Assembly (NCBI RefSeq): GCF_029338555.1 | Contig: NZ_CP119989.1 | Coordinates: 248,001-312,000 of the forward strand | Source: Halobaculum marinum | GTDB lineage: Archaea > Halobacteriota > Halobacteria > Halobacteriales > Haloferacaceae | Direction: 5' to 3' | Length of the DNA stretch: 64,000 nt | Shown: in pieces, positions 1,762 through 42,142 of the stretch | How positions within the stretch are numbered: position 1 is the first letter of the stretch | How the letters are laid out: the number at the start of each line of letters is the position of its first letter | The notes under the pieces: model-generated | Databases searched by the model: none | Told to the model about the DNA's origin: nothing | The model's input: the letters and a program-made list of their open reading frames with translations, nothing else | Position numbers and translations under genes: made by a program

Positions 1762-3105
<1,344 letters not shown>

Positions 3106-3119
3106 AGCGGTCCGGCGGT

Positions 3120-3434
3120 CTACGACTCGTCCGGCCGAGATCCCGGATCGTCGCGCGCGTCGATCCGCGTCTCGTACTTCTCGATGGCCTCGTCGAGCGC
3201 CTCGTCGGCGTCAACGTCCAGCGAGTTACACAGCGACAGCAGCGAGAACAGCGCGTCGCCGAGTTCGTCCGTCTTCACGGCGAGGTCGTCGGGGCGTTCG
3301 CCGTAGGCGGTCGACTTGGCGGCGTCGCCGGCGATTTCGCCGACCTCGCTGGCCAGATCGAGCGCCTGGTACGCGGGACCCCCACCGAGGTCGTGACGGT
3401 CGAAGAACTCCGTGACGCGGTCTTGTGCGTCCAT
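3120..3434 (-). CDS. MazG-like nucleotide pyrophosphohydrolase
   Basis: A 104-residue all-helical protein of the MazG/dUTPase-like NTP pyrophosphohydrolase superfamily. The metal-binding pattern is visible: SEVGEIAGD at about residues 29-37 and KTDELGDALF at about residues 54-63 (E-x-x-E ... E-x-x-D). Such enzymes hydrolyse non-canonical NTPs to NMP and PPi for house-cleaning. The ATG at 3434 directly precedes the family start MDAQDRVTEFF; the longer open frame upstream is Arg-rich shadow sequence. It is convergent with hemL. Confidence 0.8.
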   Translation of the reverse strand: MDAQDRVTEFFDRHDLGGGPAYQALDLASEVGEIAGDAAKSTAYGERPDDLAVKTDELGDALFSLLSLCNSLDVDADEALDEAIEKYETRIDARDDPGSRPDES

Positions 3435-3496
3435 GCGCGCCACGAGTCGACCGGGTGACAAAAACGCACTCGTTCCGCCACGAGCGCGGGCGACGA

Positions 3497-4204
3497 CTAC
3501 CCGCGGAGTTTCCCGAGGATCCGCGAGACGAGTCCCTGCTGGCCCCGCCGTTCGGGCACGTCGTCCCACAGCGCGAACGCGGCGACGACGTCGGCCTCGC
3601 GGCTGGCGACCGCGCGCTCGTCGTCGGGGGCGACGACGCCCAGGTTGATCTCGTAGTGGCCGTAGTAGCCGTACTTCAGCAGTTCGCGCTCGCGAAAGTC
3701 GACGACGAACTCGCGCACGTCGTCGGGAATCTCCTCGGCGACGAGCACGAACGAGAAGTCCGTCCCGTAGTGCTCCTCGTCGCCCTCGACCCACTCGTCG
3801 GCGAGGTCGTGGGCCACCTCGACGAGTCGCTCCAACTCGCCGACCGTCGGGCGGGCGACGCGGCGGGCGAACAGGTGCTCGTTGCTGTGGTGGTTCGCGT
3901 AGTCGAGCGAGGGGTGGAAGAACTCCTTCTGGGAGGCGATCTGCATGCTCCCGAACAGGTCGAACGACTCGCCGCCCACGCGGTAGTCGCGTTCGAGGTC
4001 GTAGTTGAACATGAGCCGGTCGCTGACGCGGTCGAGGTACTCGTCGTCCCAGACGGGGACGTCCTCGTAGGCCGCGCCGTCGACGATGCGGCCCTGCGCG
4101 TCGGTCCGGAACTCGTCGCCGTCGTCGCCGGTCTCGGCGGCGGACGCCGGGTCCGCACCGCCGCCCGGCCCGTGTGACGGGTCCGCCTCGTCCTCGCCCG
4201 GCAT
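3497..4204 (-). CDS. Conserved haloarchaeal protein of unknown function (second gene of cupin operon)
   Basis: A 235-residue acidic protein without a domain I can name. Residues 1-35 are a low-complexity, Gly/Asp-rich tail; the rest is a compact alpha/beta-like region with conserved-looking blocks WDDEYLDRVSDRLMFNYDLE, FHPSLDYANHHSNEHLF and FRERELLKYGYYGHYEIN. It has no signal peptide or transmembrane segment. The ATG at 4204 begins at the base next to the stop codon of the upstream cupin gene (stop occupies 4205-4207), so the two are almost certainly translated from one message. The aromatic- and His-rich central block is the part most likely to carry function. Confidence 0.75.
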   Translation of the reverse strand: MPGEDEADPSHGPGGGADPASAAETGDDGDEFRTDAQGRIVDGAAYEDVPVWDDEYLDRVSDRLMFNYDLERDYRVGGESFDLFGSMQIASQKEFFHPSLDYANHHSNEHLFARRVARPTVGELERLVEVAHDLADEWVEGDEEHYGTDFSFVLVAEEIPDDVREFVVDFRERELLKYGYYGHYEINLGVVAPDDERAVASREADVVAAFALWDDVPERRGQQGLVSRILGKLRG

Positions 4205-11845: not shown

Positions 11846-13834
11846 TCAGCGCTCGGCGTCCGACTCAGCGCCGAACTGGAACTCGCCGTCGTCCTCCGTC
11901 GTGCCGCCGTCCTCTATCGCCACCCGAGCGCCGCCGTCGCCGGCGACCTCGGCTCTGTCGCCGCTGGGCGACCCGGCGTCGGCCGCGACCGTGCCGCCGA
12001 CCTCGAACTCCGCGAGGAGGTCTGTGAGCCGGTCGGCTTGTGCCGACAGCGACTCAGTCTCCGCGGAGACGGCGGCCATCGACTCCGTCTGTTCCTCGGC
12101 GGTGTCGGCGGCCTCCGTCGCGTCGGTGGCGGTCTGTCGGCTGATGTCGATCACCGGTTCGATCATCGCGACCGCCTCTTCGGTGCTGGCTGCCTGGTCC
12201 TCGGTCGCGCTGCTGATCTCGTGGACGCCGTGGTTGGTCTCCTCGGTGTTCGTGGCGACCGTCGAGAGCGACTCGGACACCTCCTCGACGGCGGCGGCGC
12301 TCTCGGCGATGTGCGCTTCGGCCTCGCGGACCTCGTCCACGGTGGCGTCGGTGCGAGACTGCGTGCGCTCGATCAGCGACTCGATCTCGGTGGCGGCCTC
12401 CTGCGTCTCCTCGGCGAGTTGCTTCACCTCGTCGGCGACGACCGTGAACCCGTTGCTGTCGCCGCCGCCGCCGGCGCGTGCGGCCTCGATGGAGGCGTTG
12501 AGCGCCAGCAGGTTCGTCTGGTTGGCGATGTCGCCGATGAGGTCGACGATGTCGCCGATCTCGTCCATCTGCTCGTCGAGCGATTTGACGTTGTCGACGG
12601 TGGTGTCGATCGTGTCCTCGACCTCGTCCATGCGATCGATCGCCTCGGCGGCGGCCTCCTCGCTCGATTCGGCGACGCTGGCGGTCTCCTGTGAGATCTC
12701 CGCCACCGACTCGGCCGAGGAGGCGACCTCCTCGATCGTCGCCGACAGCGTGTTCATCTCGCCGGCCACCTCCTCGAGGAGGTCGCGCTGCTCGTCGGCA
12801 CTGTCGGCGATCCCGTCGCTCGCCTCGTTCATCCGGTCGACCGCGCGCGACGCCTCGGAGACGCCGACCGAGGCCTGACCGCTCGCGGAACTGACCTGCC
12901 GCGAGACCGACTTGACGTCGCTCACGGCGGCCTCCATCTCGTCCATCATCTCGTTGAACGCCTCGCCGATCTCTGCCATCGCTTCGCTCTTGCTGTCGGC
13001 GTCGAGACGGACGGTCAGTTCGCCGTCGGCCGCACGGGCCATCCGGGCACTGTAGGCGTCCGCCTTCGACTCCAGCACCTCGTTCAGCCGCTCGACCTCC
13101 TCGCGTCGCTGCTTGGCCTCCGCCATCGCCTCTTCGGCGTCTCGCACCTGCGACTTCTGGCGTTCGACCGCCGCCATCCGCTCGTCGGCCGCCTCGCGGG
13201 ACTTCTCGATGGAGAACCAGTTGCGCATCAGCGCCGCCGCGAGGAAGAGGATGAACACGGCGTGGATCCCTGCCCACACCCACGGGTTCTGGATCGCCGC
13301 CTCGTGGTTGTACACGTTCGTCGGGTCGATCATCGAGAAGATGACGTGGCTCCCCGACACGTAGACGAGACCGAGCGCGAACGGCACCCAGTCCTCGTAC
13401 AGGGCGACGACCGCCATGACGACGAAGAAGTGGAAGTGCGCCTCGATGAATCCGCCCGAGAACCGGACGAGGAACGTCGAACTCGCCATCAGCCCGAGTG
13501 ACGTGAGCGCTGTCTGCCACCGTCTGCCGAGACGCGACCAGTTCGCAAGCAGTGCGATCCCCACGAGGAACACGGCCTGCCCGCCGACCAGCCAGGTCGG
13601 CACCGCGGGGATGGTCGCCCCCGTCACCAGCGACTCAGTGCCCTCGTACAGGCCCAGCGCCGTCAAGAACGGGATGTGTGCGACCAACGCGATCAGGATC
13701 GTGCGGTGGCGCTTCTTCCACTGTTCGTCCGGGATCGTGTCGCCGCTCGGTGTGTATCTGATGACCTCGTCGACTTTCCCCCGGAATCGCTGGGCGACGC
13801 CGGCGCCCGTCCGAGTCCCCTCCACGTTACTCAT
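11846..13834 (-). CDS. Membrane-bound methyl-accepting taxis transducer
   Basis: A 662-residue haloarchaeal transducer. Residues about 45-215 hold six predicted transmembrane helices with the His-rich motif [11 protein letters not shown] and [11 protein letters not shown]; then a HAMP-like segment, a long coiled coil, and the highly conserved signalling hairpin ([19 protein letters not shown]) followed by [13 protein letters not shown]. The hairpin contains a GGGGDSNG insertion before GFTVVAD. The C-terminus is acidic and ends [12 protein letters not shown]. The six-helix, His-containing sensor resembles the aerotaxis-type HtrVIII architecture, but the ligand is inference. It should signal through the CheW/CheA genes at 36-40 kb. 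Confidence 0.9.
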
Positions 13835-13865: not shown

Positions 13866-13923
13866 GACGGTTGTCAAAATATCCGCGCTGATAGCCCGAT
13901 ATTGCCGGCCGCTGAGGCCGTGA

Positions 13924-16164
<2,241 letters not shown>

Positions 16165-33791: not shown

Positions 33792-34418
33792 TCAGAAGGT
33801 CGTCCAGGGTGTCGCGGTTCGCTGGCGTTCGCGCACGCGCATCTCGCGGGAGCCGTCCTCCTCGCGGGTGTTGATCACGGTGTCGAACGGCTCGTACATC
33901 GTGTGGAGCGTCTGCTCGTCGTGCATCGTGGAGTTGATCACGGCGACCGTAGACCACCCCTCGCTCTCGACCTGGCGGGTGAGGACCCGCACGAACTGGT
34001 ACACGTCCTGCGGTTCGAGGTACATCAGCAGTTCCGACAGCGAGTGGATGCCGACCCCGACGGTAGTGTCCGTCTCGCGGAACACCTCGTAGAGGTCCGT
34101 GAACTTCATCCCGATGTCGGTGACGTTCTTCGGGGAGGACGCGTAGCGGACGAGTTCGTCCTGGACGAGGTCGCCCCCGCGCTGTTTCGAGACGCAGTCG
34201 ACGACGCCGACCGACAGCGGGTCGCAGTCGGCGATTTCGGCGTAGTCGGCGCGGACCTGGTCGGCCGGGTCCCCGGTGGTGATGAGGACGCCACGCTCCC
34301 CGACGTCCGCCAGCAGGCGGAGCATCAGGTCGTACTTGCCGGTCATCGGCGGACCGGCGATGAGAAGGCTTCGGCCTCCTGCGCCGCCGTCGAACGACAG
34401 CGGGGCGTCCTCCAGCAT
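33792..34418 (-). CDS. RecA/KaiC-fold protein with degenerate Walker motifs
   Basis: A 208-residue RecA-superfamily protein. The P-loop region reads LLIAGPPMTGKYDLMLRLL, so the Ser/Thr after GK is Tyr. The Walker B strand reads VGVGIHSLSELLMYL, with His where KaiC-type proteins have Asp (IDSLSEL). The fold is otherwise intact through VAVINSTMHDEQT. It may bind but not hydrolyse nucleotide. A promoter core CTAAAA at 34442-34447 is centred 27 nt before the ATG at 34418, favouring MLEDAP over the ATG two codons upstream. It lies downstream of the KaiC-like/paralogue genes on the same strand. Confidence 0.75.
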   Translation of the reverse strand: MLEDAPLSFDGGAGGRSLLIAGPPMTGKYDLMLRLLADVGERGVLITTGDPADQVRADYAEIADCDPLSVGVVDCVSKQRGGDLVQDELVRYASSPKNVTDIGMKFTDLYEVFRETDTTVGVGIHSLSELLMYLEPQDVYQFVRVLTRQVESEGWSTVAVINSTMHDEQTLHTMYEPFDTVINTREEDGSREMRVRERQRTATPWTTF

Positions 34419-34492
34419 ACGCATGAGGTTGCGACGGACGGCTAAAACCTTTGTCCAAACCGACGGGAACGGCAGTTCAGATCGGAACAACG

Positions 34493-35035
34493 TCACAGGT
34501 TTGACCCCTCGTTGTCGGTCGGGTTGCCGAGCCCCTCCGGGAAGCCGAGCGCCTCAAGGTTCTCGCCACCCTCGAGGAGCCCCGCCCGTTGCAGGGTCGC
34601 CGGGAGGTCGGTCGCCGTCGGACGGATGCCGGCGGGGGTCGGGGTCCCGTCGACTCCCGACTCCGGTCCAGCGGCCGTCTCGGCGGACCCGCCCTGTGCG
34701 AGCCGGCTCCGAAGCGTCTCGGCGTCCGTCGACGTCGCGTCGCCGCGCTCGTACCCCTCGGCGTCGCCCTTCCCCTCGCGGTACGCGAGGTCGACGATAC
34801 TCCGGTCGTAGGTGGCGTCGAGCGAGGTTCGGACCTCCTCGAGCGCGGTCTCCGTGTCGGCGCCGAACGCGGCGGCGACCCCGAGCGCGTGCGCCCGGCG
34901 AATCGCCTCGTCCGGCGACAGCGTCTCGTCGGCGTCGCTGACGGACGGAATCACACTTGCGAGGCGGGCGAACAGTCGGCGCACGGCGCCGCCCACCGCC
35001 GTGATCCCGCCGGAGTCGTCGGACTCGACGGCCAC
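34493..35035 (-). CDS. Uncharacterised protein, paralogue B of the KaiC-linked pair
   Basis: A 180-residue protein beginning at a GTG two nt after the stop of paralogue A. Shared blocks with paralogue A are DEAIRRAHALGVAAAFG (helix), ATYDRSIVDLAYREGK and ATDLPATLQRAGLLEGG followed by LGFPEGLG. It has an additional 40-residue N-terminal segment (VRRLFARLASVIPSVSD) that may form an amphipathic helix. Between the blocks lies a variable disordered linker. No enzyme motif is seen. Tight coupling to paralogue A and a KaiC-like ATPase suggests a joint complex; the function is unknown. Confidence 0.7.
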   Translation of the reverse strand: MAVESDDSGGITAVGGAVRRLFARLASVIPSVSDADETLSPDEAIRRAHALGVAAAFGADTETALEEVRTSLDATYDRSIVDLAYREGKGDAEGYERGDATSTDAETLRSRLAQGGSAETAAGPESGVDGTPTPAGIRPTATDLPATLQRAGLLEGGENLEALGFPEGLGNPTDNEGSNL

Positions 35036-35037
35036 GC

Positions 35038-35493
35038 TCAGGCACCCCCTTCGTCGTCGGTGGGGGTGCGCCCCAACAACTCGGGGAAGCCGAGCACGCC
35101 GAGCTCCGCGCCGCCCTCCAGCAGTCCCGCGCGCTGGAGCGCCGCTGGGAAGTCGGTCGCCGTGATCGGTCTCCCGGCCGCCGACGCGCGGTCGAAGGCG
35201 TCGTCGTCGACCGGTGACGTGGGCGCGGTCCCCTCGACGAGCTGTGCCCACACGTCGTCGCCGTCGACGTGGTCGCTGTCGGCGCGGACGACCTGCGCCT
35301 CCTGTTTGCCCTCCTGGTAGGCGAGGTCGATGATGCTGCGGTCGTAGGAGGTGTCGAGCGCCTGTCGGAGTCGGTCGAACTCCTCGCGGTTCTCGTAGCC
35401 GAAGGCGGCTGCGACGCCGAGTGCGTACGCCCGTCTGATCGCCTCGTCGTCCGAGATGTCTGTCCAGTCGGTCCCCAGCCGGTCTTCGTACAT
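35038..35493 (-). CDS. Uncharacterised protein, paralogue A of the KaiC-linked pair
   Basis: A 151-residue acidic protein. Conserved blocks with paralogue B: DEAIRRAYALGVAAAFG, TSYDRSIIDLAYQEGK and ATDFPAALQRAGLLEGG then LGFPELLG. The layout (N-terminal helical block, disordered middle, short C-terminal block) suggests a protein-interaction adaptor. Its ATG overlaps the stop of the KaiC-like gene by one base, so translation is coupled. I do not recognise the family. Confidence 0.75.
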   Translation of the reverse strand: MYEDRLGTDWTDISDDEAIRRAYALGVAAAFGYENREEFDRLRQALDTSYDRSIIDLAYQEGKQEAQVVRADSDHVDGDDVWAQLVEGTAPTSPVDDDAFDRASAAGRPITATDFPAALQRAGLLEGGAELGVLGFPELLGRTPTDDEGGA

Positions 35494-36188
35494 CAGTGGG
35501 TGACCGCCCGGCCCTCGCCGACCACCAGCCCCGAGGCGGTGAACTGGAGGTTCTGGATGTCGGTGTCCACGTCGGCACCGCGCATCTTCACGACCTGCAG
35601 CCCACGGCGCATCCCGTCGTCCTCCATGTAGTTGTGGAAGAAGACGACGCCGTGCGCCAGGAAGTGTTCGTCCGCGTACGCAGAGGGGTCGGTCATCTCA
35701 GATATCAGATACGTCGTGGCGCTGGTCCGCTTGAGCGCCGAGAGGAACCGCATCACCGTGTTGTCGGAGTCGTCCAGCAAGTACCGCAACAGCATCGTCG
35801 AGTCGATGACGACGCGGTCGATGTCGCGCGACTCGATGAACGAACTGATCCGGTTGGTGACGCTGTTGACGTCGCGCCGGTCGCCGGGCATCCCGAAGAA
35901 GCGCTTCCCCTCCGAGGAGAAGGCGTCGAGGAACGTCACCGACCCCGACTCGAGCGCCCGCTCGAAGCCGAAGTCGTAGGCGTCCATGTCGCGTTCGAGG
36001 TCCGCCCGACTCTCGTGCATACTGATGAACAGACAGCGATCCCCCGCGGCCGCCCCGTCGGCGATGAACTGTGCCGAGAACGTGGTCTTACCGCTCCCGG
36101 GAGGTCCACAGATCACGTACAAGCGCTCTCCCGGCAGCCCCCCGTCGACGAGGTCGTCGAACCCCGAAACGCCGCTCGATACACGCAT
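35493..36188 (-). CDS. KaiC-like RecA-family ATPase
   Basis: A 231-residue single-domain KaiC/RadA-fold ATPase. Start GVSGFDDLVDGGLPGERLYVI, Walker A GPPGSGKTTF (about residues 28-37), and Walker B DRVVIDSTMLL are intact; the catalytic-Glu position shows MHESRADLE with a single Glu where KaiC has two. Such proteins serve in circadian systems, archaeal motility (ArlH is one) and signalling. It heads an operon with two paralogous adaptor-like genes and sits 96 nt from cheW, suggesting a link to taxis. A GCATAAGGA promoter core at 36211-36219 lies 27 nt before its ATG. Confidence 0.85.
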   Translation of the reverse strand: MRVSSGVSGFDDLVDGGLPGERLYVICGPPGSGKTTFSAQFIADGAAAGDRCLFISMHESRADLERDMDAYDFGFERALESGSVTFLDAFSSEGKRFFGMPGDRRDVNSVTNRISSFIESRDIDRVVIDSTMLLRYLLDDSDNTVMRFLSALKRTSATTYLISEMTDPSAYADEHFLAHGVVFFHNYMEDDGMRRGLQVVKMRGADVDTDIQNLQFTASGLVVGEGRAVTH

Positions 36189-36210
36189 ACAGGATACCGT
36201 ACGAGGTGCC

Positions 36211-36219
36211 GCATAAGGA
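36211..36219 (-). promoter_or_regulatory. TATA-like core of the KaiC-like operon
   Basis: GCATAAGGA on the plus strand (TCCTTATGC on the coding strand) is centred exactly 27 nt before the ATG at 36188. Confidence 0.5.
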
Positions 36220-36284
36220 CTCCCCCCCGAAACTCAAGCCTGATAGCGAGCCCGGCGGCGCCGGAGCGGCCCCGCGATGGCCGC

Positions 36285-36734
36285 TCACTCGGTTCGGGGC
36301 TCGACCCAGACGACGAAGCGGTCGTCGCCTTTGACGATGCCGCGGACGGAGTCGTCGCCGGCGGTCGTCGCCTCGTCCACCTGGTCGGCGGCCACGTCGC
36401 GGACTTGGAACACCTCGTCGACGACCCAGCCGACGGTACCGCCGTCGTCGACCTCGTCGGGGTCGAACACGATGATCCGCTCGCGAGCGCCCGTCCCCGC
36501 GATCCCGAACAGCGTCTTCGGGTCGATGATCGTGGTGGTCTTCCCGCGCAGGTCCATCACGCCCTCGACGTGGCGCGGCGAGTTTGGGATCGCCGTGAGG
36601 TCGTCGGCGTCGACGATCTCGTCGATGTACGCGATGTCGAGGCAGTACGTCTCGTCCCCCAGGCCAAACTCCAGCACCTGAGTCTGTTCGGCGTCGGCCG
36701 CGTCGGCCTCGGCGGCTCGCTGACTGCTTGCCAT
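36285..36734 (-). CDS. cheW: Chemotaxis coupling protein CheW
   Basis: A 149-residue CheW: VLEFGLGDETYCLDIAYIDEIV, PNSPRHVEGVMDLRGKTTTIID, and GWVVDEVFQVRDV are the standard SH3-like blocks. It links transducers to the kinase CheA. The ATG at 36734 is preferred to an upstream ATG because the extra residues are unrelated and a GTTAAG core lies about 30 nt upstream. It is divergent from cheB, about 100 nt away. Confidence 0.92.
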   Translation of the reverse strand: MASSQRAAEADAADAEQTQVLEFGLGDETYCLDIAYIDEIVDADDLTAIPNSPRHVEGVMDLRGKTTTIIDPKTLFGIAGTGARERIIVFDPDEVDDGGTVGWVVDEVFQVRDVAADQVDEATTAGDDSVRGIVKGDDRFVVWVEPRTE

Positions 36735-36808
36735 ACAACTCATCCCCCGAGCGTCCCGCTTAACGTTAGCCCACGAACTATCAGCCGTGAAATTCGGGGC
36801 GGTGACTT

Positions 36809-40086: not shown

Positions 40087-40916
40087 GTCGCGCCAGCCAG
40101 GGTGACAGCGAGACGGAAGGACTGCGGAAGGTCATCGACTTCGTCGAGGACGAGGTGCCGTTCGAGCCGGGATACTACAACGAGGCGTACCTCGGTCGCC
40201 GGGTCGCCGCGCGGATGCAACGCCGCGACACCGACGACCACACCGCCTACCGGCGGATCCTCGAACGCGACGACGAGGAGCGCGAGGCGCTGTTGGACGC
40301 GCTCACCGTCAACGTCACCGGGTTCTTCCGCGACCCGGACATGTGGGCGGACCTCCGGCCCGTCCTCCGCGACCTCAGCGAGGAGAACGGACGCAGCGGC
40401 GTCGACGTGTGGAGCGCCCCGTGTGCGGACGGGCGCGAGCCGTACTCGGTGTCGATGCTCGCCGCCGACGACCCGGACGTGGACGAACGCCGGGTGCACA
40501 TCACCGCCGTCGACATCAGCGAGGAGGCGCTCGACGCCGCCCGCGCGGGCGTGTACGAGACGACACGCACGACGAACATCGAGGAGGAACTGGCGCCGCT
40601 GTCGGACCCGACGGCGTACGTCGAACAGGAGGAGAACGTCTTCCGGGTGCGCCAGTCGGTCAAGTCGCGCGTCGAGTTCGAGCCGTACGACCTCATCAGC
40701 GACGGCCCGAAGGACGACATGGACCTGGTGTTCTGTCGCAACCTCCTCATCTACATCGACACCGCGTACAAAGAGCAGTTGTTCGAGACGCTGCGCGACT
40801 CGCTGCGGCCGGGCGGCTACCTCGTGCTCGGGAAGACCGAGACAGTTCCCCCCGGCCTCCGCGACGACTTCGAGGCCGTGGCGAAACGGAGCCGAATCTA
40901 CCGCTACGAGGGATAA
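40083..40916 (+). CDS. cheR: Chemotaxis methyltransferase CheR
   Basis: A 277-residue SAM-dependent glutamate O-methyltransferase. The N-terminal helical domain (YLGRRVAARMQRRDTDDHTAY) precedes the SAM-binding domain with VDVWSAPCADGREPYSV, the acidic strand HITAVDISEEAL, and MDLVFCRNLLIYID. In the first SAM motif the usual CSTGEEPYS reads CADGREPYS. It methylates transducers in adaptation, opposing CheB. Its stop overlaps the start of the HEAT gene by one base (TAATG). Confidence 0.94.
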   Translation: MSRASQGDSETEGLRKVIDFVEDEVPFEPGYYNEAYLGRRVAARMQRRDTDDHTAYRRILERDDEEREALLDALTVNVTGFFRDPDMWADLRPVLRDLSEENGRSGVDVWSAPCADGREPYSVSMLAADDPDVDERRVHITAVDISEEALDAARAGVYETTRTTNIEEELAPLSDPTAYVEQEENVFRVRQSVKSRVEFEPYDLISDGPKDDMDLVFCRNLLIYIDTAYKEQLFETLRDSLRPGGYLVLGKTETVPPGLRDDFEAVAKRSRIYRYEG

Positions 40917-42142
40917 TGTCGCTGTACACGCTCGCCCGCGACGGGGACATGGAACAGCTCACCGACACCGCGAAAAACAGCGACAGCGCCGCGGTGCGCC
41001 GCCGGGCCGCGGAGATGCTCGGCGACGTGGGCGACCCCGAAGACGACCGGACGATGGACGTGCTCATCTACCTCGCTCGCGAGGACGACGAGGAGGCGGT
41101 CCGGGCGGCGGCGGTCGACGGCCTCGACGAACTCGGCGGCAACGGGCTCGAACGGCTCATCGCCAAGGAGACCGGCGTCGACCCGAACGCCGCCGACTGG
41201 GCCGCCGTCCGCGCGTTCGCGAAGGTGTTGGGCGGCGCGAGCATTCCGGAGTACCGGATGGCCGCCGCGAACGCGCTCGGACGGATGGGCGACTCCGACG
41301 CCGTCGGCCCGCTGGCCAAGCGCCTCGACGACCCCGACCCACGGGTGCGCGAGCGGGCCTGTCTCGCGCTGGGTCGCATCGGCGACCCTCGCGTCGTCGG
41401 GCGCCTCCAAGCGAAACTCGACGACGACCACCCCGCGGTGAAAGCCGCGGCGGCGGACGCGCTCGGCACCATCGCCAACGGGAAGGCGCTGGCGGCGCTG
41501 CTGGACCTGCTCGACGACGAGAACGTCAGCCTGCGGCGGCTGGCGGCGTCGGCGCTCGGCAACGCCAGTTCGGCGAAGCCGGTACCGAAACTCGCGGGCG
41601 CCCTCGAAGACGAGCACGACACGGTGCGGCGGACGGCGGTGTTCTCGATCATCGAGTTGCTCGCCAACGCGCCGACGAAACAGAGTCACGCGGTCCGCGA
41701 CGCCGTCATCTCGGAGTTGCAAGACGCCGACGACGAGACGGTGCTCGGGCCGCTGGTCGAGATTCTCGAAGACGCCACGCAGGCGCGCCAGCGGCGCAAC
41801 GCCGTGTGGTTCCTCGGGCGGGTGTCGAGCGCAGAGCCGCCGAAACACGTCCTGCACGCGCTCATCGACGCGCTCGACGACGACGACAAGATGACCGCCC
41901 AGTTCGCGGCGACGAGCATCACGAACCTGGAGGGCCTCCAGGTGGAGTCGGCGCTGATCGAACTGGTGAAAGACGACGACGCGTCCGTCGAGGCGCGCGC
42001 GAAAGCGGCGTACGCCCTCGGCTCCGTGGGCGGCGACCGCGCGCGCGAGACGCTGGACGCGATCACCGACAGCGACGTGGACAAGCAGATCCGGAAACGG
42101 GCGTTCGCGTCGTTGTCGAAGCTCGGAGGTGTTAGACAGTGA
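40916..42142 (+). CDS. PBS-lyase-type HEAT-repeat protein of the che cluster
   Basis: A 408-residue alpha-solenoid made of about ten HEAT repeats, e.g. AAANALGRMGDSDAVGPLAKRL and RACLALGRIGDPRVVGRLQAKL. In Halobacterium salinarum the homologous HEAT protein next to cheF (OE2401F) interacts with Che and archaellum proteins. Position, order and neighbours match that arrangement. It probably scaffolds CheY/CheF-archaellum contacts rather than acting as a lyase. It overlaps cheR by 1 nt and cheF1 by 4 nt. Confidence 0.88.
   Translation: MSLYTLARDGDMEQLTDTAKNSDSAAVRRRAAEMLGDVGDPEDDRTMDVLIYLAREDDEEAVRAAAVDGLDELGGNGLERLIAKETGVDPNAADWAAVRAFAKVLGGASIPEYRMAAANALGRMGDSDAVGPLAKRLDDPDPRVRERACLALGRIGDPRVVGRLQAKLDDDHPAVKAAAADALGTIANGKALAALLDLLDDENVSLRRLAASALGNASSAKPVPKLAGALEDEHDTVRRTAVFSIIELLANAPTKQSHAVRDAVISELQDADDETVLGPLVEILEDATQARQRRNAVWFLGRVSSAEPPKHVLHALIDALDDDDKMTAQFAATSITNLEGLQVESALIELVKDDDASVEARAKAAYALGSVGGDRARETLDAITDSDVDKQIRKRAFASLSKLGGVRQ

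Follow-up and report, generated by a model that had tools for sequence, protein, structure and literature searches.

The KaiC-like ATPase CirD and its small helical partner: a conserved two-gene module associated with archaellum and chemotaxis genes

The cirD gene cluster in the Halobaculum window

The window analysed here is a 64,000-nt stretch of the Halobaculum marinum genome (NZ_CP119989.1, positions 248,001 to 312,000), and coordinates given without a locus name refer to it. On the minus strand, five genes lie in the order cheW, KaiC-like ATPase, A, B and DUF7504 protein. CheW (36285..36734; PF01584, 9.8e-27) is encoded directly upstream of the ATPase (35493..36188, 231 aa), a single-domain protein that matched the Pfam KaiC family PF06745 at 1.3e-41, scoring 143 bits against a gathering score of 26.6. 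The ATPase gene overlaps that of A (35038..35493, 151 aa) by 1 nt (TGATG), and B (34493..35035, GTG start) follows A after a gap of 2 nt. The fifth gene (33792..~34445, start uncertain) encodes a RecA-fold protein. On the plus strand, divergently oriented, are cheB, cheA, cheR, a HEAT-repeat protein gene (40916-42142) and cheF. The HEAT-repeat gene keeps its position between cheR and cheF throughout the che loci of Haloferacaceae. An ORF check of the initial annotation returned the same coordinates and overlaps.

A and B are 53% identical. The three sequence blocks said to be common to them were found in both, and neither matched a Pfam or NCBIfam family, in agreement with the claim that they carry no known domain. 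Both had been assigned to one general module, and this part had to be revised: among the Halobaculum genomes sampled, B was found in the window genome and in H. litoreum only (L154:11235-11696, 58.6% identity, dN/dS 0.47), and the conserved unit is the ATPase with one partner. B has neither the MYE..TDW start nor the conserved Trp of A, and is best described as a diverged, fast-evolving local tandem duplicate of A under weaker constraint. The downstream protein, described earlier as a degenerate RecA-fold protein, is indeed a member of DUF7504 (PF24336, 1e-26; 95 bits against a gathering score of 27), with a weak match to Pfam KaiC (0.0014) and a P-loop, GPPMTGKY, in which the usual Ser/Thr is missing. 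Of the 80 loci compared, 20 have it beside the pair; all of these are from Haloferacaceae, in which it is an add-on.

Because CirA is the known haloarchaeal KaiC protein of motility, identity of the ATPase with CirA was tested first. The published cirA primers (PMC3941300) found a different Haloferax gene, encoding a protein with 25% identity to the ATPase of the window, and a separate CirA orthologue (67%) is encoded in the window genome about 46 kb away. The published cirD primers sit in the correct orientation within the Haloferax genes orthologous to that of the window ATPase and span 248 bp, with 0-2 mismatches per primer in most Haloferax species (H. volcanii itself was not among the species read). 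The Haloferax proteins carrying these sites are 55% identical to the window ATPase, and the flanking genes, an oxidoreductase and a hypothetical protein, match the description of cirD. Primer placement and matching flanks thus identify the window ATPase, at the level of sequence, as the orthologue of CirD, which is HVO_2232 in Haloferax volcanii (PMC10869688). The module had been called possibly undescribed; its ATPase was in fact named in 2014. Its closest named relative is that of Halobaculum litoreum (94%), and within Halobacteria the identity gap is sharp, with orthologues at 48-93% and other paralogues at about 31%. Unlike that of Haloferax CirD, the window pair adjoins che genes and is accompanied by a second paralogue and the DUF7504 protein.

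CirD was also compared with other KaiC-type proteins. In the alignment, Walker A (invariant GPPGSGK) and Walker B are intact. His58-Glu59 is invariant in haloarchaeal CirD where KaiC has Glu-Glu, and the methanosarcinal sequences read have Leu, Ile or Ser at the first catalytic position, never glutamate. At the position of the Ser-Thr phosphorylation pair of KaiC CII, CirD has an invariant Leu177-Ala178. KaiC proteins are the closest solved structures, and cyanobacterial KaiC has the ATPase fold in common with CirD; however, the single domain of CirD and the invariant residues at these two sites set it outside the circadian KaiC family. ArlH resembles CirD in having one KaiC domain and a role in archaellum assembly, and CirD, too, is without the first catalytic Glu, but the two are separate families, the window ATPase scoring 35.3 bits on NCBIfam NF052589 (ArlH) against a cut-off of 215. 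CirA (HVO_1212) is likewise a KaiC-like haloarchaeal protein that influences motility and cell shape, yet it has the opposite deletion phenotype to cirD (hypermotile, always rods). According to the 2014 paper (PMC3941300), the catalytic glutamate pair is retained in all four Cir proteins; the CirD orthologues read here, by contrast, have His at the first position.

Pairing of CirD with partner A

The distribution of A was surveyed in 194 Halobacteria genomes, and gene neighbourhoods were compared in 80 loci. The ATPase and A were both present in 114 genomes and were never found apart, so that all 194 genomes had both or neither. The search recovered both genes in 79 of the 80 loci, on the same strand every time; in the remaining one (L114), an A-like ORF occupies the equivalent position. 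Gaps between the two genes ranged from -4 to +25 nt in 76 of the 79 loci, the others being +35, +65 and +100, the last at a locus that is probably decayed (L043). In each Haloferax locus, A lies directly 3' of cirD. The side-by-side position of the two genes across Halobacteria indicates that the arrangement is not due to chance. Occurrence of the partner far from a KaiC-like gene, which would have spoken against the association, was not seen in these genomes. CirD and A therefore form a well-supported two-gene module, and A, a small helical protein and obligate companion of CirD, is the new component described here.

The AlphaFold model of A has a helical N-terminal domain with pLDDT above 90 for residues 1-70, followed by a disordered tail mostly below 55. 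The tail ends in P-x-x-L, and close to the C-terminal end the alignment shows a proline that is invariant and a leucine that is nearly so. A scan of 79 A homologues against Pfam gave no credible match, the single hit (0.0078) being at chance level, and a comparison of A with the PDB gave neither a sequence nor a fold match. CirD is more conserved than A, with a mean column identity of 65% versus 25% and dN/dS of 0.10 versus 0.32. HVO_2231 and HVO_2233, the genes neighbouring cirD, are unmentioned in the literature found, and no paper found describes the partner gene. The known hypermotility genes HVO_2248, HVO_1357 and HVO_1726 were considered as the partner, but what is published of their neighbours or domains does not fit, and they were rejected.

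CirD-like ATPases are also present in Methanosarcinales, at about 35-39% identity, and most of them directly precede a small protein laid out like A. Profile comparison of this protein with A gave a probability of 85% (E 6e-6), with a match that extends over the helical region as well as the terminal motif, and the predicted helices of the two are broadly similar. A search of 295 genomes of the phylum found the methanosarcinal partner in 29; the ATPase was directly upstream in 30 of 30 loci fetched, and ArlD/E was present in all 29 methanosarcinal-type genomes carrying the pair. In one Euryarchaeota MAG (L155), the pair lies amid archaellins, an ArlD/E protein and a FlaC-ArlD/E fusion.

Association with motility genes and a CsmR-type promoter motif

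The initial annotation had suggested following the co-occurrence of the family with KaiC-like and che genes, and such co-occurrence was observed: A always accompanied the ATPase, and the pair tracked CheF. Among the 194 Halobacteria, 113 genomes had both the pair and CheF, 1 the pair only, 15 CheF only and 65 neither, counts for which Fisher p-values overstate the case because the genomes are related. When only genomes with archaellum ArlD/E were counted, the numbers were 113, 0, 15 and 29, respectively. The 15 genomes with CheF and ArlD/E that are without the pair indicate that it is not universally required. Within genera, the pair and CheF changed together in four cases (g1, g3, g42 and g51) and apart in one (g22). 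The sole genome with the pair and without CheF (G184, 93% complete) has no ArlD/E; its ATPase is a fragment and its partner is split. At this Halobaculum locus (L043, around 10000), the state of the two genes may mean that they decayed once motility was lost, or that the assembly is faulty.

The pair adjoins cheW, cheB and cheA in Haloferacaceae, and cheA and cheB in one other family (f4). A cheB, cheA, cheR, cheF or HEAT gene was located within 10 kb in 31 of the 80 loci, and counting cheW alone added 3, giving 34. Most loci thus have no che gene inside 10 kb, and the association there is one of co-occurrence, not of position. In published work, CirD falls more than 8-fold (log2 < -3) in quorum-sensing conditioned medium, together with CheY, CheW1, ArlA1 and ArlG (PMC12240190), and it is placed in one protein cluster with CheB and two transducers (PMC10869688). 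KaiC is unmentioned in the paper on the H. salinarum taxis interactome.

The published consensus of CsmR is TATCA-N4-TGATA, next to a TATA box. A CsmR-type semi-palindrome, TATCA-N4-TGAGT (36232..36245, minus strand), is located 57 nt upstream of cirD in the window, just above a putative TATA element, CTTATG (36212..36217, minus strand, about -29). Such a motif at about 57-59 nt, with at most 2 mismatches, was found in 47 of 80 cirD promoters versus 9 of 1075 control promoters, taken from other genes of these loci, and a TTAT-like element is present near the same place in most aligned cirD promoters. The Haloferax cirD sites are mostly 2 mismatches from the consensus. A second motif, TATCAGCCGTGAAA (36779..36792, plus strand), lies between the divergent cheW and cheB genes of the window, and motifs with at most 1 mismatch were found in 19 of 19 other divergent cheW/cheB intergenic regions. 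In all, the window has 6 matches to the CsmR-type motif versus 0.65 expected. CsmR would be expected to bind at the cirD and cheW/cheB motifs, a prediction made from their sequences; cirD is reported to be up in a csmR deletion (PMC13286277).

The cirD site is one of 7 matches to TATCAN4TGAKW in the 3.5-Mb window genome. The exact motifs were considered as a genome-wide motility regulon, and this was rejected: no site agreed with it other than that of cirD and perhaps one at a pilin-like gene, and most of the remaining exact matches are not near known motility genes. Outside the che region, a CsmR-type palindrome with 1 mismatch, readable on both strands, was noted at 13880-13893, between two divergent genes, one at 11846-13834 (minus) and the other at 14017-16164 (plus).

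Proposed function of the module

Deletion of cirD in Haloferax gives cells that are non-motile and without archaella, with a normal rod-to-plate shape change (PMC13286277, June 2026). The initial annotation had proposed a switch or signalling module feeding taxis or motility. In view of this phenotype, the guess at motility was largely right, and the co-occurrence with CheF, the che and archaellum loci and the promoter motif point the same way; a role specifically in taxis switching fares less well, since the filament itself is lost, which makes assembly or expression the likelier level of action.

We give a probability of roughly 0.5 to the reading that CirD and A are a module expressed with che and archaellum genes and needed for the archaellum, with CirD as an ArlH-like switch and A as its effector. 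A physical CirD-A complex, a nucleotide switch and a target are what we infer for this module. ArlH binds ATP, does not hydrolyse it and is required for archaellum assembly (PMC8978795); by analogy, CirD may form oligomers and act as a switch that binds ATP and hydrolyses little of it, with A serving it as a dedicated effector or adaptor. The helical head of A would bind CirD, the disordered tail would dock through the terminal P-x-x-L motif on a motility protein, and ATP-bound CirD-A would license archaellum assembly post-transcriptionally. In a broader form that we put forward only tentatively, CirD and its partner would be an unrecognised second KaiC-type archaellum switch, parallel to ArlH and common to Halobacteria and Methanosarcinales, in which the output would reach the motor or switch complex through the partner and not through catalysis.

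A serious rival, though a somewhat unlikely one in our estimate, is that the module is regulatory: CirD, aided by A, would act on a transcription factor, by way of its expression or its activity, and the loss of archaella would follow from altered gene expression. In its favour, transcription of arl is affected by the paralogue CirA, which also shows overlap with the CsmR regulon. Moreover, PMC13286277 reports strong stationary-phase transcriptome shifts in the cirD deletion and slight motility regained in a csmR cirD double deletion. The same paper reports, however, that CsmR target genes including arl and che are minimally changed in the cirD deletion, and the Leu-Ala at the KaiC CII phosphorylation sites also argues against a regulatory role of this type. 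Action in chemotaxis proper, at the receptor array, at CheA/CheW or in CheF-ArlCDE switching, is distinctly improbable. In Halobacteria the pair does track CheF better than archaellum ArlD/E, its neighbours in Haloferacaceae and family f4 are che genes, and the promoter motif is common to cirD and cheW/cheB. Yet when the orthologue is deleted it is the filament that is lost and not only directionality (PMC13286277), and in Methanosarcinaceae that bear the pair CheF is seldom detected while ArlD/E always is.

The close spacing of the two genes makes co-translation of CirD and A likely, and it raises the possibility that the published phenotype is due to A, the cirD deletion being polar, A the archaellation factor and CirD accessory. 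No cirD complementation was found in the searched main text of PMC13286277, so the deletion may be polar on A. The far higher conservation of CirD than of A, in both column identity and dN/dS, would be odd for an accessory protein, and we consider this explanation very unlikely.

The preferred reading, that of an ArlH-like switch with A as effector, bears on work with Haloferax, in which the need of CirD for archaella was recently shown. The obligate partner offers a direct handle on the mechanism, and its position directly behind cirD means that polar effects should be kept in mind when cirD is deleted. Through this one small protein it also becomes possible to test whether KaiC-like ATPases act, as has been proposed, as signalling hubs in archaea. 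The partner also extends the CirD system to methanogens. A Methanosarcinales MAG (L152) has tandem partner copies at 3019-3438 and 3672-4142, a parallel to A and B, and its ATPase has lost the second catalytic glutamate too. Each sampled genome of one genus (g98, probably Methanolobus) has two separate partner copies, as at L191 and L217 in G247.
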